Positions 5,610 to 19,032 of a stretch of 64,000 nucleotides of DNA are shown piece by piece (position 1 is the first letter of the stretch; each line of letters begins with the position of its first letter). Source of the stretch: Betaproteobacteria bacterium. Lineage in GTDB: Bacteria > Bdellovibrionota_B > Oligoflexia > Silvanigrellales > Silvanigrellaceae. The DNA lies in the NCBI GenBank assembly GCA_016868315.1, contig VGHE01000007.1, positions 62,001 through 126,000 on the forward strand. The letters are read 5' to 3'. The position numbers and the translations under genes were made by a program. The notes beneath the pieces are model-generated. The model worked only from the letters and a program-made list of their open reading frames with translations, was not told where the DNA came from and made no database searches.

Positions 5610-6011
5610 ATGACAGTTGAAACTAAAGCTGAAGTATCGCACGCAAAACCGAAGCGTGCAAAGAAGAAGAAAACCGCCCGCGCTGCTAAGAAAAAAGTCG
5701 GCGGCAAGGCGAAAAAGAAAGTAGTGGCGAAGGCTAAGAAGCCAGCTAAGCGCAAGGCCAAGAAGGCAACTGCGAAGAAGCCAGCAGCGAAGAAAGCTGT
5801 TGCTAAGAAGAAGCCAGCTCGCAAGGCAAAAGCTAAGAAGGCTGTTGCTAAGAAAGCTGTTGCTAAGAAGAAGCCAGCTCGCAAGGCGAAGGCTAAGAAG
5901 GCAAAGGCTAAAAAGGCTAAGAAGCCAGCTGCTAAGAAGGCTAAGAAGCCAGCTGCGAAGAAGGCTCGTAAGGCTGTGGCTAAGGTCACTCCCCTTCACA
6001 AGGCCGGCTAA
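5610..6011 (+). CDS. Lysine/alanine-rich histone H1-like protein
   Basis: A 133-residue, extremely basic protein made almost wholly of Lys, Ala, Pro and Arg after a short N-terminal leader (MTVETKAEVSHAKPK). Its body is degenerate KPARKAKAKK and AVAKK repeats, as in bacterial histone H1-like or AlgP-type proteins that coat and compact DNA. No folded domain is expected. The DNA repeats too: a 38-bp exact copy occurs at 5790-5827 and 5850-5887 (20-codon period), so repeat number could vary. AAGGGA sits about nine bases before the ATG. A strong terminator follows, so it is a single-gene unit. Confidence 0.85.
   Translation: MTVETKAEVSHAKPKRAKKKKTARAAKKKVGGKAKKKVVAKAKKPAKRKAKKATAKKPAAKKAVAKKKPARKAKAKKAVAKKAVAKKKPARKAKAKKAKAKKAKKPAAKKAKKPAAKKARKAVAKVTPLHKAG
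5790..5887 (+). repeat. In-frame tandem repeat inside the histone-like gene
   Basis: Bases 5790-5827 are repeated exactly at 5850-5887 (38 identical bases, 60-base period, 20 codons). The period is a multiple of three, so gain or loss of a unit would change protein length without breaking the frame. Confidence 0.85.
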
Positions 6012-6581: not shown

Positions 6582-7310
6582 ATGACGACCCTCTTCGACC
6601 TGATGGAACGTGCCGGGCTGGTGCCTCTCGAGAATTCTCAGGTTGTTTTGCCCAACTTTGAGTTCCCCGTTTTACTGAATACGGACTACGACGCTCCGCC
6701 TCCGATTCAGCCTCTCTTTTGTCGGGAGTCAGGTCCTGAGGCGCCGCTCGCCACGCTTCTCTATTTCACCTTTCCTGGGTGTGAGAACTGTCGGCCGGGT
6801 TTGAAGGCGTTCGAGGAACTGGCGCGTGATTCGGCCACGACATCTCAGAAGATATGTTTTCGCGCCGTCGTCACTGATTGGCAAACTCAGGCGGAGATTG
6901 CTGATGAGCTCAAGAGTGTTTCATGGCGCAGTGAAATCGGTGTTGTTTGGGATGCACGTGGTGTTCTTCAGGAACGCTTGGCGGTTCTCGCGCAGCCTGC
7001 CTTTTTTCTTCTCGACCGCGAGGGCAAGGTCGTGGCCTACACAAATTCAACAGTCGAGTTCGGTGCGCCAGGCTTTCAGGTCTTTTGGACGGCCTTCAAA
7101 GAATTGATTATAAATAACGCAAATTCAGCGACTCAGGAGCCACTGTGGAGCCATTCGCTGCGCTCGGAAAATCTTGTGAAGTCAAGCAGTACCGTCACAT
7201 TTTTGAATAACGGAGTGCTTTCAGCTTTGTGGCTGGTCGTGGCAATTGCCCTCTGCTACTCTTTGAGCAGGTTTTTCACTCGACTTCGAAAGAATTTCAG
7301 AGGGTCTTAA
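6582..7310 (+). CDS. Thioredoxin-fold protein with C-terminal membrane anchor
   Basis: A 242-residue protein with a thioredoxin/TlpA-type fold: the FTFPGCENC active site puts the CxxC cysteines at about 67 and 70, and a cis-proline segment AQPAFFLLD lies about 90 residues later. The C-terminus has one membrane segment (~211-230, LSALWLVVAIALCYSLS) and a short basic tail, so it would be tail-anchored; there is no N-terminal signal peptide. That would place the thioredoxin domain in the cytoplasm unless export is unconventional. Likely a thiol reductase or sensor; substrate unknown. The ATG is preceded by AGGT five to six bases away. Confidence 0.75.
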   Translation: MTTLFDLMERAGLVPLENSQVVLPNFEFPVLLNTDYDAPPPIQPLFCRESGPEAPLATLLYFTFPGCENCRPGLKAFEELARDSATTSQKICFRAVVTDWQTQAEIADELKSVSWRSEIGVVWDARGVLQERLAVLAQPAFFLLDREGKVVAYTNSTVEFGAPGFQVFWTAFKELIINNANSATQEPLWSHSLRSENLVKSSSTVTFLNNGVLSALWLVVAIALCYSLSRFFTRLRKNFRGS

Positions 7311-8081: not shown

Positions 8082-8163
8082 GAGGGCGCTCGAGCGTATC
8101 CGTCAGCCCTGTGTGGCACTGGGCAACCTCTGCCGCTCGCGCTTTGGGTCTGACAACCGAATA

Positions 8164-8194
8164 ACCCCACGGGTGAAACTCGTGGGGTTTTTTG
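8164..8194 (+). terminator. Rho-independent terminator
   Basis: An 11-bp stem (ACCCCACGGGT/ACTCGTGGGGT, one G-U pair) with a GAA loop and six following T residues. It closes the preceding gene and lies immediately before the ATG of the motor-like operon, so the operon either has its promoter in 8082-8163 with partial read-through or depends on attenuation here. Confidence 0.92.
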
Positions 8195-9406
8195 ATGTCT
8201 GAATTTTTGGACACCTGCCAATTCAGAAAATTCAGTGCACTGACAGTGCTTGCTGCTGCGCTTTCAGTAGCGCACGTTCACGTGGCTTTTGCCGCCAATG
8301 TTGATTCCCAGAAAGCCGAGGCTGGGCAACGTTCATCTGCTGATACAGCCTCCACAGAAAAAGAACAGATTAAATCGTTCAACGAAGTTTTGCAGGATCT
8401 GGTGAATGAGTTCGCATTCGATTTGCGAGCAAAAGCCTTAAATTCGTTGCGTACGGTTGCTGTTAGGCGTGTCGCACTGGGCGAGGGCATTCCGCGCTCA
8501 TACGAAAGCTATCTTGAAACACAAATTTCCGATGCATTCCGCAAACACAGTGGAACAAAGGTGCTTCAGTGCACCAACTGTAGAATCAGACGAACGGTTG
8601 TTGAAAATGGTCGGCTTGTGATGACCACCCCCATCAACAATCCACAAGAACTTGATGCGATTGCGAGTCAATTGGGTGTTGAGGCGTGGGTTGATGTGAG
8701 TCTTTTGTACCAGGAAACGAGCATGGTGTTGGGCTTTCATGTGTTCGACGCCAAGTCAAAGGAGCTCGTCTGGACCAAGCTTTACAACACGGAAAATATC
8801 TACAAGCAAAAGATGGAGCAGAAGGAAGCTGAGCTCGCTCAAAAGCAGTCTGTGGAGAAGGAAAAAATCTCAGACTATGTGCTCAACACAACTCTCGGCT
8901 GGCAGCTGGTTCCGAATGTGAAGGACAGCGCGAGTATGTTGTCGGCTACCGTTCGATTTGCAGAGCGTTTCAGCTCGGCAAGGCATGAGGTTGGAACGCG
9001 GTTTGGATTTCTGGTCGCGCCATCGAGTGTGCTTTCCGATTATCCTGGAATTGCGGGCGACCCCGCGTCAAGTGCAGAAATTGTTGATGGCACCAGCAAG
9101 GAAGTCATTCTTCCCTTCACGAAGGGCTTTGCATTGTCAGCCTTCTACTCCAGGATAGTGAGCCCCGATCCTCTTAAAACAGATGGTGTTGTCTGGGGTT
9201 GGGAACTGGGAGCCGGTACGATTGTTTCCACCGGCTACGCATGCTTTTCCGTTCGCACCGGTGCGCATATGCGCATGGGCAAGCGTTTTGTGCTCGATGT
9301 TGGTGGAGCCTACAGCCTGCCCACAACCATTAGCATCCGTAACAAGTACAAGTACACAACTCCGGGAGGTATCGGCGCAGATGTCGGTTTCGGCGTGCAG
9401 TTCTAA
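8195..9406 (+). CDS. Exported protein with TolB/CsgG/FlgO-like N-domain and beta-rich C-domain
   Basis: First gene of the motor-like operon, 403 residues. A signal peptide is visible (basic/polar start, hydrophobic core ALTVLAAALSVAHVHVAF, cleavage near AFAA). The next ~150 residues read like a TolB-N/CsgG/FlgO-type fold (TVAVRRVALGE, then LDAIASQLGVEAWVDVSL, 'Gaxawvxvs' pattern). The C-terminal ~170 residues alternate beta-strands and end in aromatic F, as outer-membrane barrels often do (ADVGFGVQF). Likely an outer-membrane or periplasmic component. The ATG lies directly after a terminator stem with only GGGG as a possible ribosome site. Its 3' end overlaps the next gene by 26 bases. Family assignment is tentative. 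Confidence 0.65.
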   Translation: MSEFLDTCQFRKFSALTVLAAALSVAHVHVAFAANVDSQKAEAGQRSSADTASTEKEQIKSFNEVLQDLVNEFAFDLRAKALNSLRTVAVRRVALGEGIPRSYESYLETQISDAFRKHSGTKVLQCTNCRIRRTVVENGRLVMTTPINNPQELDAIASQLGVEAWVDVSLLYQETSMVLGFHVFDAKSKELVWTKLYNTENIYKQKMEQKEAELAQKQSVEKEKISDYVLNTTLGWQLVPNVKDSASMLSATVRFAERFSSARHEVGTRFGFLVAPSSVLSDYPGIAGDPASSAEIVDGTSKEVILPFTKGFALSAFYSRIVSPDPLKTDGVVWGWELGAGTIVSTGYACFSVRTGAHMRMGKRFVLDVGGAYSLPTTISIRNKYKYTTPGGIGADVGFGVQF

Positions 9407-10157
9407 GCGCCTTTGTGCGCTTATTATTCTTGCAGCAGCGTGCACATCCACTCCACCGGATGATGCGGCGTCTGATCGTGCTGAAGCAAAGGCAAAACCA
9501 AGCCAACGTGAAATCCGTATTGCCCCTCCTCTTGGATCTGGAGAGATTGTAAAGAGACAGCAGCGTGAGCAGATTGAGCAGGTGCTCGCCGGAGAGTCTG
9601 GCACAGATTCTGTTTCAGAGGTCAAACTGCCCGCCTCTGTCATGGGATTGAAGCCCGCTGATATTACTGAAGACCCTATTTCTTTATCGCGCGAGCAGGC
9701 TCGTACCCAACGCACTGATGCTGAGATTGCAGTGAATGCAGGGCAGGGTGAATTCGAGAAAAAATTGGGCGACTTCGATCGTGTCTTGGATGTGAGCGAA
9801 GAAAACAACCGCCCAATGACTCCGAGTTTCATCGGTCAAACACAAAAAATCCGCGAGCTCTTTCAGAGCAGAAAATTCGAAGATGCACTCGTTGAAGCCA
9901 ATGAGCTCCTTCTTCACTATCCGCGATCTGCTTTGTTGTGGACTATGAAGGGGACTCTGCATTTAAGACTGAATCAGAAAGATTTAGCCCTGGCCGCATA
10001 CGAAAAGTCCTTCGACATTGAACCTTCGCGTCGTCTGCTTGCACAGATTGAGGATCTGCGTCGGCTTGTGTCCGAACGAGAGTCAATGCGCAAAAGCCGT
10101 GGCAGTTCGACATCCATAGAGTCGGTTCCTCAAGCGACAGGAGAGCAGCGCAAATGA
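9381..10157 (+). CDS. TPR lipoprotein of the motor-like operon
   Basis: A 258-residue protein starting inside the end of the preceding gene (GGAGG about 12 bases before the ATG). A short signal peptide ends in ILAAAC, an imperfect lipobox, predicting lipidation. A low-complexity charged linker follows, and the last ~100 residues form TPR-type helical hairpins (FEDALVEANELLLHYPRSAL, then KDLALAAYEKSFDIEPS). TPR lipoproteins scaffold envelope complexes; in Myxococcus gliding machinery TPR proteins accompany MotAB-type motors, a parallel and not proof. The stop overlaps the MotA-like start (ATGA), indicating coupled translation. Longer upstream in-frame starts were rejected because they give no signal sequence. 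Confidence 0.75.
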   Translation: MSVSACSSKRLCALIILAAACTSTPPDDAASDRAEAKAKPSQREIRIAPPLGSGEIVKRQQREQIEQVLAGESGTDSVSEVKLPASVMGLKPADITEDPISLSREQARTQRTDAEIAVNAGQGEFEKKLGDFDRVLDVSEENNRPMTPSFIGQTQKIRELFQSRKFEDALVEANELLLHYPRSALLWTMKGTLHLRLNQKDLALAAYEKSFDIEPSRRLLAQIEDLRRLVSERESMRKSRGSSTSIESVPQATGEQRK

Positions 10158-10972
10158 TTGGAGTGCTGGTTGGACTGTCTGGCTTTGCATGGTCACTCTG
10201 GTATGTGTTGCAGCACGGCAGCAATCAGTTCCGCGGGTTCTGGGATCCAGCAGCTGCCATCTTGCTTGGGGTGGGGCCACTGTGCGTGATTTTAATGTCC
10301 CACAGCTTTGTTGATTTTGTTGCAGGAATAAAAACACTCACAAAAATTGCGTTTTTCAGTCAGAAAAAAGAAATGAATCAGATTGCCAACCAGCTTTCTA
10401 CAATGACCTCAGCTGTGCGCACCGAGGGGGTTGGAATTCTTGCACGGTACAAGGAACACCTCAGAAATCCTCTGCTGAAGGATGGTGTAACGCTCATCTT
10501 GTCGGGCTTTACTCCCGATGAAATTCGCCACAATTTGACAGCAAAAATAAACACGAAGCAGAATGAATTTACCCACGCGTCGAGCTTGTTTGAGAACTTG
10601 GGTAAGCTCTGTCCAGGTATGGGATTACTTGGGACGATTGTTGGACTTGTCCAGATGCTCTCCAACATGTCCGACCCCGCTCGACTTGGCCCAGGAATGG
10701 CGATTGCACTTTTGACGACCCTTTACGGACTTCTACTTGGCACAGTTGTGTACACTCCCGTGTCCGAGAAGATATCAATTTACGCAGAGAAGACCCTGCA
10801 GCGGGATTTGATGATTCTCGAAGGTGTCATGTTGATGAAGGAGAAGAAATCGCATGCGCATCTCCGTGATGTGTTGAACACCTATTCGAGTGTTGCCCCA
10901 GCAGAGCGCACGCAAACAAGGAATCCGCACTCTTCGGCGCCTCAGCACCCTCCTCTCTCTCGGTCATCGTGA
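10154..10972 (+). CDS. MotA/TolQ-family stator subunit
   Basis: A 272-residue inner-membrane protein of the MotA family. Four membrane segments are visible: ~1-20, ~30-52, ~150-172 and ~178-203. The conserved channel region is clear: CPGMGLLGTIVGLVQML followed by GPGMAIALLTTLYGLLLG. A large cytoplasmic loop between segments 2 and 3 carries an AVRTEGVGILAR stretch like the MotA rotor-contact region. With MotB it would form a proton or sodium channel producing torque. It is coupled to the TPR lipoprotein upstream and sits nine bases before the motB-like gene. It is outside any flagellar cluster, so whether it drives a flagellum or another machine is open. Confidence 0.88.
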   Translation: MIGVLVGLSGFAWSLWYVLQHGSNQFRGFWDPAAAILLGVGPLCVILMSHSFVDFVAGIKTLTKIAFFSQKKEMNQIANQLSTMTSAVRTEGVGILARYKEHLRNPLLKDGVTLILSGFTPDEIRHNLTAKINTKQNEFTHASSLFENLGKLCPGMGLLGTIVGLVQMLSNMSDPARLGPGMAIALLTTLYGLLLGTVVYTPVSEKISIYAEKTLQRDLMILEGVMLMKEKKSHAHLRDVLNTYSSVAPAERTQTRNPHSSAPQHPPLSRSS

Positions 10973-10981
10973 GGGGGCAGA

Positions 10982-11638
10982 GTGACACATCCATCTATCT
11001 TTGAAACCATACTCCGCCCCCAACGTCGCTCCCGCAAAAAAACGGGAGATTCGCCGTGGATTACGTCCTACGCAGATCTGACAACGAATCTTATGGCTCT
11101 CTTTGTACTCATGTTGGCCATGTCGCAAGTCAATGTTCAGAAGTTCGATGCCGTCTCGCAGGTTGTGACTCGCCAACGCACAGACAGCCTCGATGAATTG
11201 AAAAAGCAGATTGACGCTCAAATTGCCACGCGCGGGTTATCTGGCTCTGTCTCAACAGAATTGGGGATGAGCGGGCTCATGGTGGAGTTCCTTGGTAGCG
11301 TACTTTTTGAGCAAGGAAGCGATAAGCTAAGTGCCTTTGCTGCCAGGGAAGCTGTTCCGATTTTGCAGATTCTTCAAAACACCGACAGCAAATATCTGCT
11401 CAGTTTTGAGGGACATACTGACGATGTTGGCAAGGATGATTTGAACTGGGCGCTCAGCAGTGCACGAGGTGTTTCGTTGTTGAACAGGATGCGCGCACTG
11501 AATGTGTCTCAGGAACGAATGAGTGTTGCAGGTTTCGGCTCTACCCGTCCCAAGGTGTCGACCGAGGGAAAGAGTGGAGAGGAACTTGAGAAGGCAAGGT
11601 CTTTGAATCGAAGGGTGGTGATACGGGTCTATCAATGA
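10982..11638 (+). CDS. MotB/OmpA-family stator subunit
   Basis: A 218-residue protein with a basic N-terminus, a single membrane helix and a C-terminal OmpA-type peptidoglycan-binding domain. The helix begins SYADLTTNLMALFVLMLAMS and places an aspartate at residue 32, the ion-carrying position of MotB. The OmpA domain has LSFEGHTDDVG and a final LNRRVVIRV. The GTG start follows a GAGGGGG sequence. It is short compared with E. coli MotB (about 308), with little linker, so the peptidoglycan domain sits close to the membrane. The stop overlaps the next start (ATGA). Confidence 0.9.
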   Translation: MTHPSIFETILRPQRRSRKKTGDSPWITSYADLTTNLMALFVLMLAMSQVNVQKFDAVSQVVTRQRTDSLDELKKQIDAQIATRGLSGSVSTELGMSGLMVEFLGSVLFEQGSDKLSAFAAREAVPILQILQNTDSKYLLSFEGHTDDVGKDDLNWALSSARGVSLLNRMRALNVSQERMSVAGFGSTRPKVSTEGKSGEELEKARSLNRRVVIRVYQ

Positions 11639-14148
11639 AAATTCAAAGTTTGGTCAACAAAAAAATAAAATCAAAGTGGGGGCAGGCAAGGCTCTCCCTG
11701 ATTAGTTTTTTTGCAGTGCTCAGCTTTATTGAAGTTGAATATGAGACTTCGCCCTTTGGTAATACTCCTGCAGCCTATGCATCAGTGAGCAGCGAAGATT
11801 CCGAGAAAAGCAGATATGAAAGTGAAATCGTTCAGAGCCTAAAGAGTCGTGTGCAAAGTGATTTGAATAAGTACTGCCCTGACGGTTGTTCCATTTTGGG
11901 CATTGAAGCAGAGGCTCGTGAGGTCTTCGACACAAGCTCAGCTTCCTTGGGATTTGAAACAAACGTTGCTGCACCGCGTCGTTTCTCGGTGCGGCGATCA
12001 CTTGTTGAAGTTTTGGTTGACAATCGACTGGGTACTTCCAATATTGAACGGATTGAGAATGTTATTGAGCGCTCGAGCAGGAATTATGGAATTGCTGTAG
12101 AAATTGAATTCATTCGCACTACTCTTCCTGATTCACCCCAGCTTGTGCGATCTGAGTCGCAGGCGCGCAGCCTTGCTCTCGACAACGTCCGATCGGCATA
12201 TGAGAAGATCGTCAATGACTTTTGCCCGGAGGAATGCCGCTTAAATTCGGTCGAGATTTCGACTTCACGGATGTCGGTCGACGAGATTCAGGCACAACCT
12301 GCCCGCCGCATCGCAGTAATTCCTGAGAGCAAATGGGCACTTTACATTCAGGGCAGCACGGTCAATATGAGCATCGATGAACAGATGCCTGACCAGCGCC
12401 GTGAACAAATCGAAGAACTCATGCGTGACAGCATGGAAGCTTATGGTGCTGTTGCTCTGAATGTGAAGAAGACGTTGTTTCCGAAATCTGCCCGTCAGCT
12501 GGAGAAAGATGCTGATGAGATGCGCGACGACCCCTGGGGCTTAGATAAGCTCGGTCGTGCGCTCAAAGTCTTCAGAGAATTTGCCAACACCAAGGAAATT
12601 ATCCGCGAAAGGGAATCACTCAGTCGTGAGACTGAGAATAAAACAGAATCTCTTGCTGAGAGAAGGTCAGAGACGAAGGAAAGCACCGACAAATCTCGCG
12701 AGAGCTCTCAATTGCAATCGCAAACCGAGAATAAGGTTTCTGACAAAGAAAGCATTTCGTCTTTCTGGAGTCAGGAAAAGATTCTTCTTGCTGCTGCAGT
12801 TCTCGCAGTTCTGTTGATTGTTGCTGCCGTTGCCTTACGCGTTGTTCTGACCGGAAAGCAGGTGCAGCACCTCATTTCCGAGGGTCGTGGTGGGATCTCC
12901 GATGGGTTTTCGGGATCTCCCGATGAGAGCCAGATAGATCCGTCACTTATCGGTGTTCCACCTTCGACCCGCTCGCTGCCACAAGCACCGAGTGTTGCAC
13001 AAGTCACAACAGTGCGTTCGCCCGTGCATTTGGCGCAGGGGCTCACAGATGAACTCGCACAGCGTCTCAACACTCAGTCGCTAAAGGATGAACTGACCCA
13101 GGCGTTTATCACTCAGCCCAAGCTGGCGCGCGAAGTTTTCGCACGTGTTTTGCGTGAGGACGGTGTCGAGTTTTCGGCAAAATGTGTGGCTATTTTGGGA
13201 GAGATGGTTGTTTTTGATCTGGTAAGCGACGACGATCTCAAGAAGGAAGTTGCTCTACTCGCTGAATATATTCACGTCAGTACTCCATACGTGAGCGAGA
13301 GCGAGCAGTTGACTGTATTGCGAAACCTGAAGCTTAAGATAACAGCAGCTAAGATGCGAATCATGACACAGCGCACCAAAGAGGCGTTTGATTTCTTGAG
13401 AACTCAGTCGGCACAGCAGATTTATGATCTTATCGTAGATGAAAGCGCACGCTCGCAAGCTGTGGTGCTGACCCAGCTTTCAACAGAGAGGCGGCGGATG
13501 GTCTTCGAATTGTTTGCAGGTACGTTGAAGAACGACCTTTTGCGCGAGTTGTGCATCAAGGAAACGCTGCCACGTGAATATCTGCAGAACGTTGCTGATG
13601 CTCTGAAAAGAAAGTTGCGTCAGACAGGAGTCCTCGATGGTGAGTCATTGGGAGGAGCAGATGTTCTCATTGACCTCATGGAGCGCTCTGACCGCGATGG
13701 TCAGTCTCAGATGATGTCTGATCTTGACGTCAACAACCCTGAGCTCTCACGCCAAGTACGCAGCCGCCTCGTGAGTGTCGAGAGCCTAGCTTACCTCAGC
13801 GATGGGCTTTTACTCGAAATTTTCCTCTCGCTCGAACCCCAGACGATGGTGGTCTTCTTGGCGGGAGTGCGTGAACACATTCGCACAATGATTCTAAACA
13901 AGGCTCCCGACGAAGTGGCGGCCGACTGGAGTTCAAGTGCTGCAAGTGTCAGGAGCATTGACCCAGAGACATTCCGTCTTGCCGAGATGCAGGTGATTGG
14001 CAAGGTTCGTGGCTTTGCAGCCAATGGAATGCTGAATTTGTTCGAGATCAATGAGATCATGTTCCCGATTGATAGATCTGGACGGGAGAATTCATCCCGC
14101 ACTGAGGCTGCGCATCGGGTACCTGTATCCAACTTGGTTGTTGCTTGA
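11635..14148 (+). CDS. Membrane-anchored FliG-like protein with duplicated periplasmic domain (FliF/FliG-like chimera)
   Basis: An 837-residue protein unlike standard flagellar parts. Residues ~20-36 form a signal/anchor helix ending near AAYAS. The periplasmic part (~50-375) holds two repeats, each with CPxxC (C81-C85 and C197-C201), a strand-helix unit and a conserved end with 'YG...TLP/TLFP'; the unit resembles the ring-building folds of FliF/YscJ, but this is pattern-level only. A charged Ser/Glu/Lys linker precedes one membrane span at ~383-405. The cytoplasmic part looks like FliG: a middle domain (~583-630, FLRTQSAQQIYDLIVDES) and a C-domain (~674-790, GGADVLIDLMERSDRDG, PELSRQVRSRL, FLAGVREHIRTMIL). 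Charged torque residues of FliG-C are only partly kept. Translation is coupled to the MotB-like gene. The topology matches a FliF-FliG rotor in one chain. No exact family is known to me. Confidence 0.75.
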   Translation: MKIQSLVNKKIKSKWGQARLSLISFFAVLSFIEVEYETSPFGNTPAAYASVSSEDSEKSRYESEIVQSLKSRVQSDLNKYCPDGCSILGIEAEAREVFDTSSASLGFETNVAAPRRFSVRRSLVEVLVDNRLGTSNIERIENVIERSSRNYGIAVEIEFIRTTLPDSPQLVRSESQARSLALDNVRSAYEKIVNDFCPEECRLNSVEISTSRMSVDEIQAQPARRIAVIPESKWALYIQGSTVNMSIDEQMPDQRREQIEELMRDSMEAYGAVALNVKKTLFPKSARQLEKDADEMRDDPWGLDKLGRALKVFREFANTKEIIRERESLSRETENKTESLAERRSETKESTDKSRESSQLQSQTENKVSDKESISSFWSQEKILLAAAVLAVLLIVAAVALRVVLTGKQVQHLISEGRGGISDGFSGSPDESQIDPSLIGVPPSTRSLPQAPSVAQVTTVRSPVHLAQGLTDELAQRLNTQSLKDELTQAFITQPKLAREVFARVLREDGVEFSAKCVAILGEMVVFDLVSDDDLKKEVALLAEYIHVSTPYVSESEQLTVLRNLKLKITAAKMRIMTQRTKEAFDFLRTQSAQQIYDLIVDESARSQAVVLTQLSTERRRMVFELFAGTLKNDLLRELCIKETLPREYLQNVADALKRKLRQTGVLDGESLGGADVLIDLMERSDRDGQSQMMSDLDVNNPELSRQVRSRLVSVESLAYLSDGLLLEIFLSLEPQTMVVFLAGVREHIRTMILNKAPDEVAADWSSSAASVRSIDPETFRLAEMQVIGKVRGFAANGMLNLFEINEIMFPIDRSGRENSSRTEAAHRVPVSNLVVA

Positions 14149-14214: not shown

Positions 14215-15894
14215 ATGCGTTCAAGTTTGTTTAGACGCTTCGTGGCAGCGGGTGTGATCGCTGCGGCCTTCACGGGGATTGCCAGCACCGGTTGCATCAA
14301 ACAAAAGCCTGCAAGCCGTAGCTATGGCATTGAAGATCGCGACAATCTAGACCCTGAAACACAACGCCTGGTGAATGAGGCGTGCATGCCTGAAGATGAG
14401 TCTGGGCTTTTGGATCCGGATACCGAAGGGCAGTTGAAAGCAGATTGTCTTGCGCTTCATCAACTCGCTGTCAACATGCAAGCGGGACGCAATGGCAAAG
14501 TCAAAGTTCAAGTTCAAAGGAAGAAAAGCGACTTTGAAGAATTTCTTCCTAGCGCAGACATGGTTGCGCTGCTTGGCGAAATGAAAAAGTCTGTGACTCA
14601 ACCTGAAGAGACCGATGTGCTGAGGTTCTTTGGCTGTCGTATTACTCCCGCTCTCGGAGATCCAAATACACTTCTTGGTCAGAAGGGAACAGGGACAAAC
14701 GATCCAAAGGATTGCGCAGCTTTTGCAACCGATCCGAAGTGGGGAACAACCATTTTGGGTGATACACGGCAGTTCGAATTTGTTTTTGTCAGAGGTGCCG
14801 ACAGCAAACTCTACCAAGCTGTTCGAGTGACCGGGAACTGGCAGGAGCTCTCTGCAATCTTTATTTATCGCAAGCCCATGGCGCGCACTGTCATGGTCAC
14901 TCATCGTCCGGATTCGTGGTCAGACCAAATCGCTTTCCCTGCACCGTTGCCTTCGGATCGCTTCTTCGAGGGCAAAGAGGGAAGTGATGAGCAGGATGTT
15001 GCGCGTCAGATGCTTGGACTGCAGGAAAGTGAAAAGGCTCCGCGTGACCTAGAGGAATTTTCCCAGGTTTGGCTGAAGCAACAGGTTGATGGCGCGCGTC
15101 GTGTTGTTGTCGGCGTCTCGGCTGCTGTGATTCTCACTGCTGCATCGCTTCCAGCTTTGGGTGCTGCGATGGGGAGCTTCTGGACGGCGACAGCGGGCAC
15201 AGTTGGTTACTTTACTGCCGGAGCGACTTCAGGTGCTGCCGCGGCGGCAGGAATCTCTTCGGCTGGAGGCGCTGCGGCGGCCATGGCGACCAGTGCATTC
15301 GGAGTAGCGATTGCTGCGGGTGGTATCTTCACTGCGGTGAGTATTCCGCTGCACCGCTGGATTGAAGATCTTCCGCGTACACCGCTCAAAACAGCAATGC
15401 AGACGGCCTATTTTGTAATGGTGGCGGCCGACGTCTATGGAATGGGGCGTGGGGCTGTTGTGCATACGGCACGTGCCTTCGGAACGACGAAAAATTTGCT
15501 TGGAACCGTCTTCAATCCGCAGTCCTGGAAAAATTTGTTCAATCTCTCGCCAAAGGCGGTCAGCAAGAAGGAGATCGTGAGCACCCTGAATGCCAAGGGT
15601 GGCCCTGCATGGGAGCGCTTCAAAGTGGCTCTCAATGGATTGAGAAACGCAGCCGGGAATATGCGTGGTACGCGTCCGAGCGCGCCGAGAGCTCTACCCC
15701 CTGAAATTCAACTTGAAATCAAAGGGCTGTTTGCTGGTTCTGCGGATGCCGCGGCCAAGTCCGGAGATGTTGCATCGCGTGTGCGTCTTTCCCAGATGCT
15801 TGAAGAGAATTTCATAAAATCACGCCTTGCTGACCTCGAACGGGCGTTTGTAACCTCGGGACTCGGGAACTACTCAGGGGGGCGTCCCCTCTAA
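14215..15894 (+). CDS. Large lipoprotein with internal hydrophobic Gly/Ala-rich block
   Basis: A 559-residue protein with a signal peptide and clear lipobox STGC (Cys27), preceded by AGGAGG. Residues ~30-290 are a soluble cysteine-containing domain of unknown family. Residues ~295-385 form a long hydrophobic Gly/Ala-rich block that could be two or three membrane helices (VVVGVSAAVILTAASLPALG, then GAAAAMATSAFGVAIAAGG). A basic, helical C-terminus follows. It is 66 bases after the FliG-like gene on the same strand, so it may belong to that operon. A lipoprotein with this much internal hydrophobicity is unusual; it could be an inner-membrane lipoprotein or insert into membranes. Function unknown. 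Confidence 0.7.
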   Translation: MRSSLFRRFVAAGVIAAAFTGIASTGCIKQKPASRSYGIEDRDNLDPETQRLVNEACMPEDESGLLDPDTEGQLKADCLALHQLAVNMQAGRNGKVKVQVQRKKSDFEEFLPSADMVALLGEMKKSVTQPEETDVLRFFGCRITPALGDPNTLLGQKGTGTNDPKDCAAFATDPKWGTTILGDTRQFEFVFVRGADSKLYQAVRVTGNWQELSAIFIYRKPMARTVMVTHRPDSWSDQIAFPAPLPSDRFFEGKEGSDEQDVARQMLGLQESEKAPRDLEEFSQVWLKQQVDGARRVVVGVSAAVILTAASLPALGAAMGSFWTATAGTVGYFTAGATSGAAAAAGISSAGGAAAAMATSAFGVAIAAGGIFTAVSIPLHRWIEDLPRTPLKTAMQTAYFVMVAADVYGMGRGAVVHTARAFGTTKNLLGTVFNPQSWKNLFNLSPKAVSKKEIVSTLNAKGGPAWERFKVALNGLRNAAGNMRGTRPSAPRALPPEIQLEIKGLFAGSADAAAKSGDVASRVRLSQMLEENFIKSRLADLERAFVTSGLGNYSGGRPL

Positions 15895-16020: not shown

Positions 16021-16899
16021 GTGGAGAAGGTTAACCTCAAAAGAGTCTGCAATGAGATCGTTAAGCCTTCGGGATTTCTCGACTATCGAGAGTATCTCGA
16101 AGCGGTTTTCAATGCGCTCAAGCAGCTCGACATCGATTATACTTATTTTGATTTTGCAGAGGATGCAGGGCTCGGGCGCAACAACTTGATGAACGCCTTG
16201 GTTCGGAATCGCCGCCCATTGACCCCCAAGGCAGCCAAGAAAATCGTCCAGAACCTGAGCCTGGTTGGACGCGAACGGCAGTATTTCGAGGCTTTGGTTG
16301 AACATGCCTACGCGCGAGACCCTATCGAACGTGAATCCATCTTGCGCAAGTTGGTCATGCTCAAAGGCAGCCTGGTCGCCAATGAGCTCGACCGTTGGCA
16401 GCTTGAGTTTTTCAGCCACTGGTCGAATGCGGTGTTGCTCGAGCTTATGAACTTAGAGGATTCCACGCTTGAGCCTGAGTGGTTCCAAGATCAAATCCGT
16501 CCGAAAATTACCGTGGATGAAATTCGCTATGGACTCGATTTATTATGTCGCATTGGTTATGCAAAACGCGATGAAGTTCAAAGTAAATATATTCCTCTTC
16601 AAACTGATGTGAGTACCGGAGCAGAGGTCGCGAGCGTGGCTATGATTCGCTATCACCAGACACTGCTCGACTTGGCTCGTGCTGCTGTTGTGGATGTTCC
16701 AGCAGAGCAGCGGGAAGTTAATTCTCTTGTGCTGAGCGTCACGCAAAACGAATTTGAAGCAATTAAAGCGAGTATACAGGAGTTCTCGCAGAAAATTTTT
16801 GACAGTCATCCACCCAAACCTCCGGATGCATCATCACGAGTTGTTCAAATCTCTATGCAGGTCTTTCCACTGACTCGAAGCAAAGGGGAGAAGAAATGA
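16021..16899 (+). CDS. TIGR02147 family protein
   Basis: A 292-residue protein with the TIGR02147 pattern: an N-terminal 'YREYLEAVFNALKQ' helix, a helix-turn-helix-like segment (FAEDAGLGRNNLMNALVRNR, ~41-60) followed by LTPKAAKKIVQNLSL, and a 'YFEALVEHAYARDP' segment. The family is abundant in Bdellovibrio and Fibrobacter relatives and is thought to regulate transcription; targets are not known. The GTG start has an AAAGGGG site about seven bases upstream. Its stop overlaps the next start (ATGA), tying it to the DUF4382 lipoprotein and matrixin. A large inverted repeat precedes it. Confidence 0.85.
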   Translation: MEKVNLKRVCNEIVKPSGFLDYREYLEAVFNALKQLDIDYTYFDFAEDAGLGRNNLMNALVRNRRPLTPKAAKKIVQNLSLVGRERQYFEALVEHAYARDPIERESILRKLVMLKGSLVANELDRWQLEFFSHWSNAVLLELMNLEDSTLEPEWFQDQIRPKITVDEIRYGLDLLCRIGYAKRDEVQSKYIPLQTDVSTGAEVASVAMIRYHQTLLDLARAAVVDVPAEQREVNSLVLSVTQNEFEAIKASIQEFSQKIFDSHPPKPPDASSRVVQISMQVFPLTRSKGEKK

Positions 16900-17966
16900 T
16901 TTTTTGGAGCAGCAAAAAATCCAATCACGTGTTTCGTAAAACTCTTCTCACATTTGCAACCGCAGGCTGCATATTGCTTTACGTTCTGAGCGGCTGTCGG
17001 GTTCAGGCGGGTAATCCATCCGCTGACAAGCCCAAAACCCCGGGGACGGTCACGGTTGCGCTTGCCGATGCTCCCGTGGATGAGCTGTCGAACTTGTACG
17101 TCACCGTGAAGGGAATCGCTTTTGCAGCCGAGGGTACGGGGCGTTGTTTGCGCGAACCTGCACGAGCTTGCGCTGATTCGAGTTTGGTTTCGTTTGAGTT
17201 CAACAGCACTATTGAGGTCGACCTGTTGAGTCTTTCGGACGGTCGTACTGAAATTTTACCTTTCTCTCAGGAACTCCCATCGGGAACATATGAAGGATTA
17301 CGTTTGTTTTTGAACGAAGGCAGTTCTGTGCGCGGAGTGCTCAAGAGCGATGGCAGCACTGTTGAGGTTGATTTTCCTGTGAGCCCACTCGGAAAGCGTG
17401 AGTTCACAATCGCACAGGAATTTGATGTTCAAGAGGGAACTGAAAATCAATTGATCATTCACGTCGACTTGCGTCGCTCACTGCGTAAGAATCCAAACGG
17501 ACGGTTCTTCCTGTCGCCCATCGTTAATGTGGTTCCGGAACGCTTTGCTGCGCGCTTGTTCGGAGATGTTGCGGACGCAAATGTGACACGCATCTGTGCC
17601 TACAACGAGGCAGGCAAGCGACGTCCGGATGGCTCAGGACATTCAGGGGGCAAGCCTGGGCAACCTTCAATAAATCCACAGCAGCCACCCCGGCCATCGT
17701 ACCCTGTTCCAACGCAGCCCACACGCTCGCCCTTTCCGCAGGCACCGGTACCCCCGCAACCTCCGTTGCGTCAGCCCGATGCAACCAGTTCGTGTGATAA
17801 TGCCGAGGCTGTTGCAGATCTAAGTGACAGCAAACGTAGCTATGATCTCAGGTACTTGCCACCCGTGCGCTACACCTTGCGGGCATTTAAGAAGGATGGC
17901 TCTTACACCGATACCTCAGTGACCGAACCGCTTTTGCCTCGCGAGAGCAGGGAGCTCGGACTGTGA
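16896..17966 (+). CDS. DUF4382-domain lipoprotein
   Basis: A 356-residue lipoprotein: basic N-terminus, hydrophobic core and lipobox LSGC. Residues ~45-210 fit DUF4382, an immunoglobulin-like or beta-sandwich domain: GTVTVALADAPVDELSNLYV, then VKGIAFAAEG and the 'LPSGTYEGLRLFL' strand. The C-terminal part is a Pro/Gln-rich linker (~245-295) followed by a short Cys-containing domain. Function of DUF4382 is unknown; such proteins are envelope-exposed. It is coupled to the TIGR02147 gene and followed 31 bases later by a metalloprotease. Confidence 0.8.
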   Translation: MIFWSSKKSNHVFRKTLLTFATAGCILLYVLSGCRVQAGNPSADKPKTPGTVTVALADAPVDELSNLYVTVKGIAFAAEGTGRCLREPARACADSSLVSFEFNSTIEVDLLSLSDGRTEILPFSQELPSGTYEGLRLFLNEGSSVRGVLKSDGSTVEVDFPVSPLGKREFTIAQEFDVQEGTENQLIIHVDLRRSLRKNPNGRFFLSPIVNVVPERFAARLFGDVADANVTRICAYNEAGKRRPDGSGHSGGKPGQPSINPQQPPRPSYPVPTQPTRSPFPQAPVPPQPPLRQPDATSSCDNAEAVADLSDSKRSYDLRYLPPVRYTLRAFKKDGSYTDTSVTEPLLPRESRELGL

Positions 17967-17997
17967 ATGAGTCGGACTGTGGGACAGGTGGTGACGC

Positions 17998-19032
17998 ATG
18001 TTGCTGACGCGTGCTGTGGTTGCTGGAGTGTTGTGTTGTGGAATTCCACAGGCCTGTTTGCCGAAGCAGAAAACGGATGCTGAGGTGAACTATGCTGTCG
18101 GTGACTGGTGGAAACGAGCTGACAGTAATCTTCTTGTCGCTGCAATGGAAAAGCAGCAAGTGATTGTTTGTTTGACCAGCGAGGGACGCGTCGATGCGTC
18201 CGTTTGGCCGCGCAACAAAGTGCACTTCGAGAAAATTGTTCGCTCTGCGCTGAGCGATTGGTTTGCTGCCATTGGTGCGAAGGTGCAAATCAATTTTGTT
18301 GAGCCGAGCTGTGTGAATGATCTGACCCAGGGCAGGGTACAGGTTGTGCTGCATTACGATGAACCACTTTTCCAGTCACGGATATCACAAACAGCGTCGC
18401 CCACATTAGGCGTATTTTTGATTGGCGATGGCGGCTTGCATCTCAACGTCAAAGGCGTTTTGAATCCGGCGCGCGATGCGACCCTGGGCTACAAAACAAC
18501 TCTGCATGAGTTGGGCCATGCGATGGGTCTCAACCACAGTCAGGTCACTGGTGCGGTGATGCAGCCGATGCTCTCGCGCGCAAGTGCGCGGCTCACTGCG
18601 GATGATGTTGCGGGGATCAAAGAAGTTTGGAATCGAGTGAGTCAGCAGCGTTCATCGGCTCCACGTGAGAGCGGCTCCAGCAAGGGCATGGATAAGCCCG
18701 TTCGTGCGGCAACGCGCGCTGCAGAAATTCAACCGTCTGTGGCTTCACCGGCACAGGGCGCAGGTGCACCAGAGGCTATGCCATCAAGCTCCACAGTGCG
18801 CTTGGCTCTGCGTTATGACTCCTGGTTCAAACTCTCAACGGCGCAGTCTTATTTGCTCGCTGAAAGCGAAAAATGTCCCTTGAAGTTGGATCAGCGGATT
18901 GTCGTGCAGATTCTCGATGGAGGCGCTTTATCCTCAGGACATCTCCGTGTGGCACTTGCAGAGAACCTGCCAGGATGCGCTTTCGGAGGCGTCGGCACTG
19001 TTGGATTTCTTTATCAGGGACATATTGATTGA
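17998..19032 (+). CDS. Secreted matrixin-type zinc metalloprotease
   Basis: A 344-residue protein with signal peptide and possible lipidation (PQAC near residue 20). The catalytic zinc site is HELGHAMGLNH (H170, E171, H174, H180), the extended HExxHxxGxxH of matrixins (peptidase family M10), followed by a VMQPM segment that stands for the Met-turn. A linker then leads to a C-terminal beta-rich domain (~260-344) of unknown kind. It would hydrolyse proteins outside the cytoplasm. It is the third gene of the TIGR02147 cluster. Whether it is anchored by lipid or released is unsure because the lipobox is imperfect. Confidence 0.88.
   Translation: MLLTRAVVAGVLCCGIPQACLPKQKTDAEVNYAVGDWWKRADSNLLVAAMEKQQVIVCLTSEGRVDASVWPRNKVHFEKIVRSALSDWFAAIGAKVQINFVEPSCVNDLTQGRVQVVLHYDEPLFQSRISQTASPTLGVFLIGDGGLHLNVKGVLNPARDATLGYKTTLHELGHAMGLNHSQVTGAVMQPMLSRASARLTADDVAGIKEVWNRVSQQRSSAPRESGSSKGMDKPVRAATRAAEIQPSVASPAQGAGAPEAMPSSSTVRLALRYDSWFKLSTAQSYLLAESEKCPLKLDQRIVVQILDGGALSSGHLRVALAENLPGCAFGGVGTVGFLYQGHID

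Follow-up and report, generated by a model that had tools for sequence, protein, structure and literature searches.

A single-chain FliF/FliG-type rotor-like protein with a dedicated MotAB stator suggests a second kind of rotary motor in Oligoflexia

We describe a gene that encodes, in one chain, RBM-like periplasmic domains resembling those of FliF, one transmembrane (TM) span and a FliG-like cytoplasmic half, and that has a MotA and a MotB of its own, either encoded alongside it or inherited along with it. It lies at 11635-14148 (+) of a 64,000-nucleotide stretch of contig VGHE01000007.1 (assembly GCA_016868315.1, positions 62,001 to 126,000 of the forward strand; hereafter the window), which is part of contig 7 of genome G000 (3.24 Mb), a member of the class Oligoflexia. 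The product, 837 residues long, is most likely a single-chain rotor with a private MotAB stator, independent of the flagellum, and points to a second kind of rotary motor in this group of aquatic bacteria.

Results

Architecture of the rotor protein

The open reading frame is exactly the one that a preliminary description of the window had assigned to a single protein, and its ATG overlaps the stop codon of motB. All features of the window given with coordinates below are on the plus strand. The chain starts with a probable signal peptide and N-terminal spacer (residues 1-51, 11635-11787), where a short hydrophobic core is followed by AxA-type sites in most orthologues; the predicted local distance difference test score (pLDDT) is low at residues 33-52. 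This segment had been read as an N-terminal anchor. The hydrophobic core is indeed present, but the AxA-like sites make it more probably a cleaved signal peptide, which would leave the protein with one TM span.

Two periplasmic repeats follow. Repeat 1 (residues 54-166, 11794-12132), RBM-like in the model and by Foldseek and VIA-align, contains C81 and C85, and repeat 2 (residues 167-288, 12133-12498), RBM3-like by VIA-align to FliF (8z5v), contains C197 and C201. The repeats are a true duplication, as already proposed from their strand-helix order: hhalign aligned them over 111 columns with a probability of 99.0 (E 6.5e-18) and with the cysteine pairs in register, and both share an alpha-beta-beta-alpha-beta fold in the model. 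The four cysteines are where the preliminary description had placed them and are invariant in 25/25 aligned orthologues. Its CPxxC motif did not extend to the family: the proline is the rule only in repeat 2, which makes the family motif CxxxC.

Beyond the repeats come a signature helix region (DPxGLxxL...FxxxAxTKE, residues 299-325, 12529-12609) with invariant D299, P300, L303, F313 and E321, a disordered Ser-rich linker, the TM helix, a second linker and a FliG-matching stretch of about 340 residues. The model puts the disordered linkers at residues 319-379 on the periplasmic side and 418-469 on the cytoplasmic side. The TM helix (residues 383-405, 12781-12849) agrees with the span foreseen in the preliminary description: residue 383 starts the strongest 19-residue hydrophobic window beyond residue 250, and the model has a helix at 380-417. 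When the topology was compared with the two flanking TM helices of FliF, one clear span was found, the N-terminal helix being signal-peptide-like.

The cytoplasmic half consists of a FliG_N-like helical region (residues 470-590, 13042-13404), a FliG middle domain (residues 594-664, 13414-13626; Pfam FliG_M, E 1.2e-10) and a FliG C-terminal torque domain (residues 696-801, 13720-14037; Pfam FliG_C, E 8.8e-7). The latter two both score above the Pfam cut-offs and are confirmed by fold, with VIA-align Z scores of 12.5 for FliG_M 4fq0 (root-mean-square deviation (rmsd) 1.5 over 79) and 13.2 for FliG_C 1qc7 (rmsd 1.9 over 89), so that the C-terminal half does have the arrangement of FliG that had been proposed for it. 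The first region gave no Pfam FliG_N match; it is covered by the superposition on full-length FliG (8wiw), which runs from model residue 508 with Z 14.8 and whose rmsd of 17.3 over 288 is due to a different placement of the domains. In the TIGR00207 equivalog model the rotor scored 49.8 bits, below the cut-off of 226.7.

With one model of the whole chain, Foldseek placed FliG at ranks 1-13 (best 3hjl, E 1.4e-9) and also returned FliF in the same run (7bk0, E 2.1e-5; 6scn, E 1.2e-4). The periplasmic part modelled alone (pLDDT 84.1; predicted template modelling score (pTM) 0.58) had FliF MS-ring chains as its four best Foldseek matches (E 1.0e-6 to 6.3e-6), and the 15 best VIA-align entries were all FliF (Z 8.7-9.9), repeat 2 superposing on FliF RBM3 with an rmsd of about 2.4-2.5 over 97-98 (8z5v, Z 9.9). 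CzrB (Z 8.4) and OsmC (Z 8.3) came below FliF. An OsmC, CzrB/MamM or RbfA-like identity of the repeats was considered and rejected: these folds rank just under FliF, and they leave both the two-domain match to FliF 125-438 and the FliG half unexplained. No match to PF01514 (YscJ_FliF) was found in the rotor up to E 1. The FliF-plus-FliG topology proposed for this chain is thus supported, by the FliG fold C-terminally and by the FliF MS-ring as best match for the periplasmic part, with the reservation that sequence profiles are not significant; judging from the models, the periplasmic homology to FliF is by fold alone.

A charge-reversed torque face and a matching change in MotA

We used E. coli FliG (NC_000913) as the numbering ruler, with residue numbers checked against its sequence; rotor counts are over the 25 aligned orthologues and stator counts over 20 MotA and 20 MotB. 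The preliminary description held that the charged torque residues were partly lost. They are changed, but more strongly than that, as the whole family has the charge reversed at the R281 and R297 positions (E760 and D776 in the window protein). The first is E or D in 25/25 rotors and the second D or E in all 21 rows without a gap (4 gaps), while the K264 position is neutral in 23/25 and R in two. The D288 position is acidic in 23/25 and the D289 position in 19/25. FliG rows of the same class (6, five distinct) have K, R, E, D/E and K at positions 264, 281, 288, 289 and 297, and from position 281 to 297 the net charge lies between -2 and -6 in the rotor family, as against -1 to +1 in those FliG rows.

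The stator differs on the other side of this contact. MotA R90 is kept in 20/20, E98 is lost in 20/20 (V in nine, A in five, I in three, M in two, T in one) and position 101 is K or R in 19/20; three flagellar-type MotAs retain both R90 and E98. In the flagellar motor, R90 pairs with D288/D289 and E98 with R281, according to the excerpt available of PMC12505986. If the contact had been re-paired, the sequences would be expected to show this pattern, with E98 gone where the facing R281 is reversed. The channel residues are kept (MotA P173 in 20/20, P222 in 19/20; the MotB D32 equivalent in 20/20).

That the torque residues differ from those of FliG would also be expected of a decayed flagellar paralogue, or of a silent duplicate without motor function. 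We consider this highly improbable, because throughout the class the frame stays intact and its cysteines and signature residues do not vary, and because it is co-inherited with a matched stator.

Two further FliG motifs are missing: EHPQ, the FliM-binding motif, from the middle domain (H126 in 0/25 rotors), and the switch-related MFxF (M233 in 1/25, F234 and F236 in 0/25). With both gone, a FliM/FliN switch ring is unlikely, as far as the alignment can tell.

The rotor gene and its stator genes are inherited together

In the window, the rotor gene is the last of a tight operon in the order TPR gene (9381-10157), motA (10154-10972), motB (10982-11638), rotor gene, the start of motA overlapping the stop of the TPR gene. 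The first product is lipoprotein-like, with TPR matches below the Pfam cut-offs and a LAAC lipobox-like sequence; its ATG is at 9381. MotA (PF01618, E 9.2e-23) falls into a tree clade of its own, which we call lineage 1, and MotB (PF13677, E 1.7e-15; PF00691, E 3.3e-12) has the ion-carrying Asp and an OmpA-like peptidoglycan-binding domain. The pair thus carries MotA_ExbB, MotB_plug and OmpA domains together with the channel Pro/Asp residues, and flagellar models give it the best scores.

These properties bear on the possibility that MotAB pushes the rotor-like protein as TolQR and ExbBD push TolA and TonB, the periplasmic domains being moved without a full ring. The single TM span, the long disordered linkers at 319-379 and 418-469 and the TPR lipoprotein-like gene in the operon would suit such a non-rotary transducer. 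However, the FliG torque domain and the duplicated pair of RBM-like domains are what a ring rotor is built from, and the stator is MotA/MotB-like with an OmpA-type anchor, not TolR/ExbD-like. We therefore judge a transducer improbable, and a rotor turned by MotAB remains the preferred reading.

We searched 56 related Oligoflexia genomes for the rotor (orthologue threshold >240 bits) and found it in 27, two of them with incomplete copies (G046, a C-terminal part near a contig end; G055, two pieces). A profile search gave 28/58 genomes, all of class Oligoflexia. The orthologous MotA clade (at least 170 bits; best other MotA 108 bits) is present in 29 genomes, namely every one of the 27 rotor genomes and, in addition, G035 and G052 (90% and 66% complete), and neither gene is present in 27 (Fisher p 5.5e-14, kinship ignored). 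Presence and absence of the rotor agree with those of MotA inside five families (with/without: f1 5/9, f4 4/4 plus two MotA-only, f5 6/2, f6 5/2, f10 3/3). In trees, this MotA clade forms one branch (Shimodaira-Hasegawa-like approximate likelihood ratio test (SH-aLRT) 100), as does the rotor clade (SH-aLRT 93).

In Silvanigrellales, rotor gene and motAB stand in one operon in 4/4 loci besides the window. In Oligoflexales the two loci are unlinked, and motAB is followed by clpS and clpA in 16/16 loci (in two of them Pfam confirms ClpS and ClpA). That the genes are linked in one order, and in the other are co-inherited though unlinked, speaks for a single machine. The Oligoflexales loci L042-L053 share, upstream of the rotor gene, a conserved block encoding a MinD/ParA ATPase, a DnaJ-HTH_25 protein, an RluD-like synthase, a YkuD-Cds6 protein and a DsbA-like protein; the block adjoins pilM and a PALP-CBS gene. 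A scan of genome contigs found no loci with the single rotor protein as query and 22 with the alignment, all assigned to genomes of the Oligoflexia set; no orthologue outside Oligoflexia appeared in that scan, which relied on two short exact patterns and can overlook distant orthologues.

A sister lineage in genomes in which no flagellar core genes were found

G000 also has an ordinary FliG (contig 15, 140 bits), FliF and FlhA, and by gene content it is flagellated. Two additional FliG_C proteins are encoded in it, both on contig 19. One is a paralogue of 779 residues (FliG_C 28.7 bits) that adjoins its own TPR protein, motA, motB and a SpoIIE-type phosphatase; this cluster of TPR, TM-FliG-like, MotA, MotB and SpoIIE-phosphatase genes (L035, 1912-10688) has relatives in other Oligoflexia, and similar clusters with Pfam-supported FliG_C occur at L128-L132. 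In G015 and G019 (96% and 93% complete), no FlhA, no FliF and no other FliG_C was found; the only FliG_C proteins are these cluster frames, 696 and 597 residues long, close to a MotA gene. The G015 and G019 clusters are, on gene content, the best evidence for FliG-type proteins that would work with MotAB outside flagella.

Nine loci were taken as candidates for this second lineage (L035, L123, L125, L127-L132). L123 and L125, where MotA is near a large protein without a FliG match, and L127, which has only a marginal FliG_M (25.2 vs 25), were not counted as established FliG-type loci. The charge reversal is a trait of lineage 1: seven lineage-2 rotors have K/R at the R281 position in five cases, A in one and N in one, and the nine lineage-2 MotAs keep R90 in three and E98 in five.

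Other relatives of these components were also seen. The second contig-19 protein of G000 is a soluble FliG-like protein of 347 residues (L002, 805-1848; also L037, 7148-8191; FliG_C 34.9 bits), not a normal FliG, next to a helicase-like frame. G016, G025 and G035 each have two FliG-sized proteins, the second at 80-96 bits, which suggests a second flagellar-type switch protein. MotA genes with two tandem MotB-like genes are found at L119 (3794-5361) and L121 (3268-4801), a divergent MotA/MotB pair beside a protein of about 1,400 residues at L122 (617-6364), and a MotB beside a protein of about 1,400 residues at L126 (6161-11001).

DsbA-like neighbours and a possible Clp degron

A DsbA-like gene was found near the rotor gene in 7/13 Oligoflexales rotor loci (L042-L054); in six of these it is the next gene upstream or one gene away, and in L047 it is four genes away. 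None was found in the 4 Silvanigrellales loci or in the first 24 kb of the window. Some misses may be due to truncation, because several loci end near the rotor gene; eight more orthologues, with only short flanking sequence, fall outside these counts.

The disordered tail of the rotor is variable except for its last residues. The window protein ends in -VVA (14137-14145), a possible Clp degron, and a hydrophobic-Ala ending is present in 24/25 orthologues, compared with 2.6% of 425 other proteins from the same loci, 1/21 FliF, 0/6 FliG rows, 0/20 MotA and 0/20 MotB. The tmRNA tag of the host is GNDYALAA. FliF of Caulobacter is degraded primarily by ClpAP, as stated in the excerpt of PMC8119881. 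Together with this ending and the clpS-clpA synteny, the Caulobacter analogy suggests that turnover of the rotor may be controlled by Clp.

Other genes around the operon

Three neighbours are candidate members of the system only. A thioredoxin-like protein with CxxC (GCENC) is encoded upstream (6582-7310; weak Thioredoxin_8 match, E 6e-4, below the cut-off) and is syntenic in L038, L039 and L040; a secreted protein, also upstream (8192-9406), is kept in Silvanigrellales and syntenic in three loci; and a lipoprotein-like protein directly downstream (14215-15894), with no Pfam match, is retained in L038 and L040. A strong 12-pair hairpin followed by TTTT (8163-8189), a terminator or leader structure, immediately precedes the start of the 8192 gene. 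Promoter-like sites in the window were at chance level (4 found vs 5.2 expected). The window also encodes a histone H1-like Lys/Ala-rich protein of 133 residues (5610-6011) and, consecutively at 16021-19032, a DUF4423 regulator, a DUF4382 protein and a matrixin-type metalloprotease.

Discussion

We propose that the protein is probably a rotor subunit, belonging to a dedicated envelope motor that is driven by ions and resembles the core of the flagellar motor but is separate from the flagellum. Its two RBM-like domains would oligomerise into a periplasmic ring, with a CxxxC disulfide probably pinning each domain, and the FliG-like halves would form a matching ring on the cytoplasmic side. MotA5B2 units anchored to peptidoglycan would use the ion gradient to turn the FliG-like ring, presumably through a re-engineered electrostatic contact in which an acidic rotor face meets MotA R90 and the new basic residue at 101. 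Rotation would proceed without C-ring switching, the FliM-binding and switch motifs being absent. The periplasmic ring would hand torque to an envelope element, for which surface gliding or envelope remodelling are guesses as to the output, and Clp proteolysis through the hydrophobic-Ala tail probably removes rotor that is not needed. Taken as a whole, the fuller proposal has about even chances of being right: a class of flagellum-independent, ion-driven rotary motors with a disulfide-pinned single-chain FliF/FliG-type rotor, a co-evolved MotAB with re-paired electrostatics, two divergent lineages in Oligoflexia and controlled Clp turnover of the rotor.

Several observations weigh against this proposal. 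No output component was identified in this analysis, and we infer the ring, the rotation and the stator contact. The AlphaFold model of the whole chain has a pLDDT of 73.6 and a pTM of only 0.29. OsmC, CzrB/MamM and RbfA-type domains are only 1-2 Z units under FliF, a small margin for a common fold. An hhalign comparison of the periplasmic part with a FliF alignment was not significant (probability 0.9-2.7%); its best local matches fall in the parts of RBM3 that correspond to the structurally matched elements. At the torque face, position 288 is Ser in two rows, including the window, and position 289 in three; the window protein has Ser-Ser, so that the best-kept acidic pair is missing there. 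Finally, the lineage-1 rotor occurs solely in genomes with FliG (27/27) and is absent from 21 more FliG genomes and from all 8 FliG-less ones (p 0.0046).

The last observation favours another explanation, in which the protein belongs to the flagellar motor as an accessory: it would form an additional ring, served by stator units of its own, around an ordinary basal body. Yet 21 of the 48 FliG genomes do without the rotor, and none of the neighbourhoods read is a flagellar locus except L046, in which about 1.5 kb separate the rotor gene from a FliG gene. The FliM-binding and switch motifs are lost, the charges of the torque face are reversed compared with FliG of the same genome, and the MotA is a separate clade. 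Moreover, the sister lineage is present where flagellar core genes were not found. We thus regard an accessory flagellar part as unlikely, though less so than a transducer. For the motor separate from the flagellum, the restriction of lineage 1 to FliG genomes means that independence rests on the sister lineage.

Compared with flagellar FliF and FliG, the protein has the same RBM-like periplasmic domains, membrane span, FliG N/M/C-like cytoplasmic part and MotAB partner. It differs from them in being one chain, in having two RBM-like domains instead of three with no room for the beta-collar insert, in a probable signal peptide in place of TM1, in the CxxxC pairs and reversed torque charges, and in lacking EHPQ and MFxF. 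Because the defining sequence features of both are not found in it, it is not filed under FliF or FliG; the system is set among MotAB-driven motors, as a variant. Agl (gliding), GldLM (type IX secretion), ZorAB, TolQR and ExbBD are ion-driven stators outside the flagellum, as proposed here, and we know of none among them that acts on a FliG-type rotor. To our knowledge, FliG-type torque generation has been described only in flagella. Within open-licence PMC text, judged by title and the opening of the abstract, no paper describing this system was found.

A natural precedent in form is the FliF-FliG fusion of Chlamydiaceae, bacteria generally taken to lack flagella, in which a single chain likewise combines a FliF-like with a FliG-like part (PMC4768692, in excerpt). 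That fusion is shorter (about 330 residues) and the same excerpt reports only the M region of FliG in it, whereas the rotor described here has M and C and a dedicated stator; the excerpt lists FliF, FliL and FlhA as the remaining flagellar genes of Chlamydiaceae, a list that does not contain MotAB. Engineered FliF-FliG fusions of Vibrio and Salmonella, also mentioned there, indicate that one chain can work, but they are artificial and act inside flagella (PMC4768692).

If the proposal is right, these bacteria would have a minimal two-part rotary motor without export, C-ring switch or filament, and its two partners would be a natural experiment on the re-pairing of a rotor-stator contact. The gliding motor of Bdellovibrio is still unidentified according to the excerpt of a 2026 review (PMC13104615), and the system is a candidate engine in a group related to Bdellovibrio. 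It would also be a candidate for comparison in asking how flagella could arise from simpler motors.

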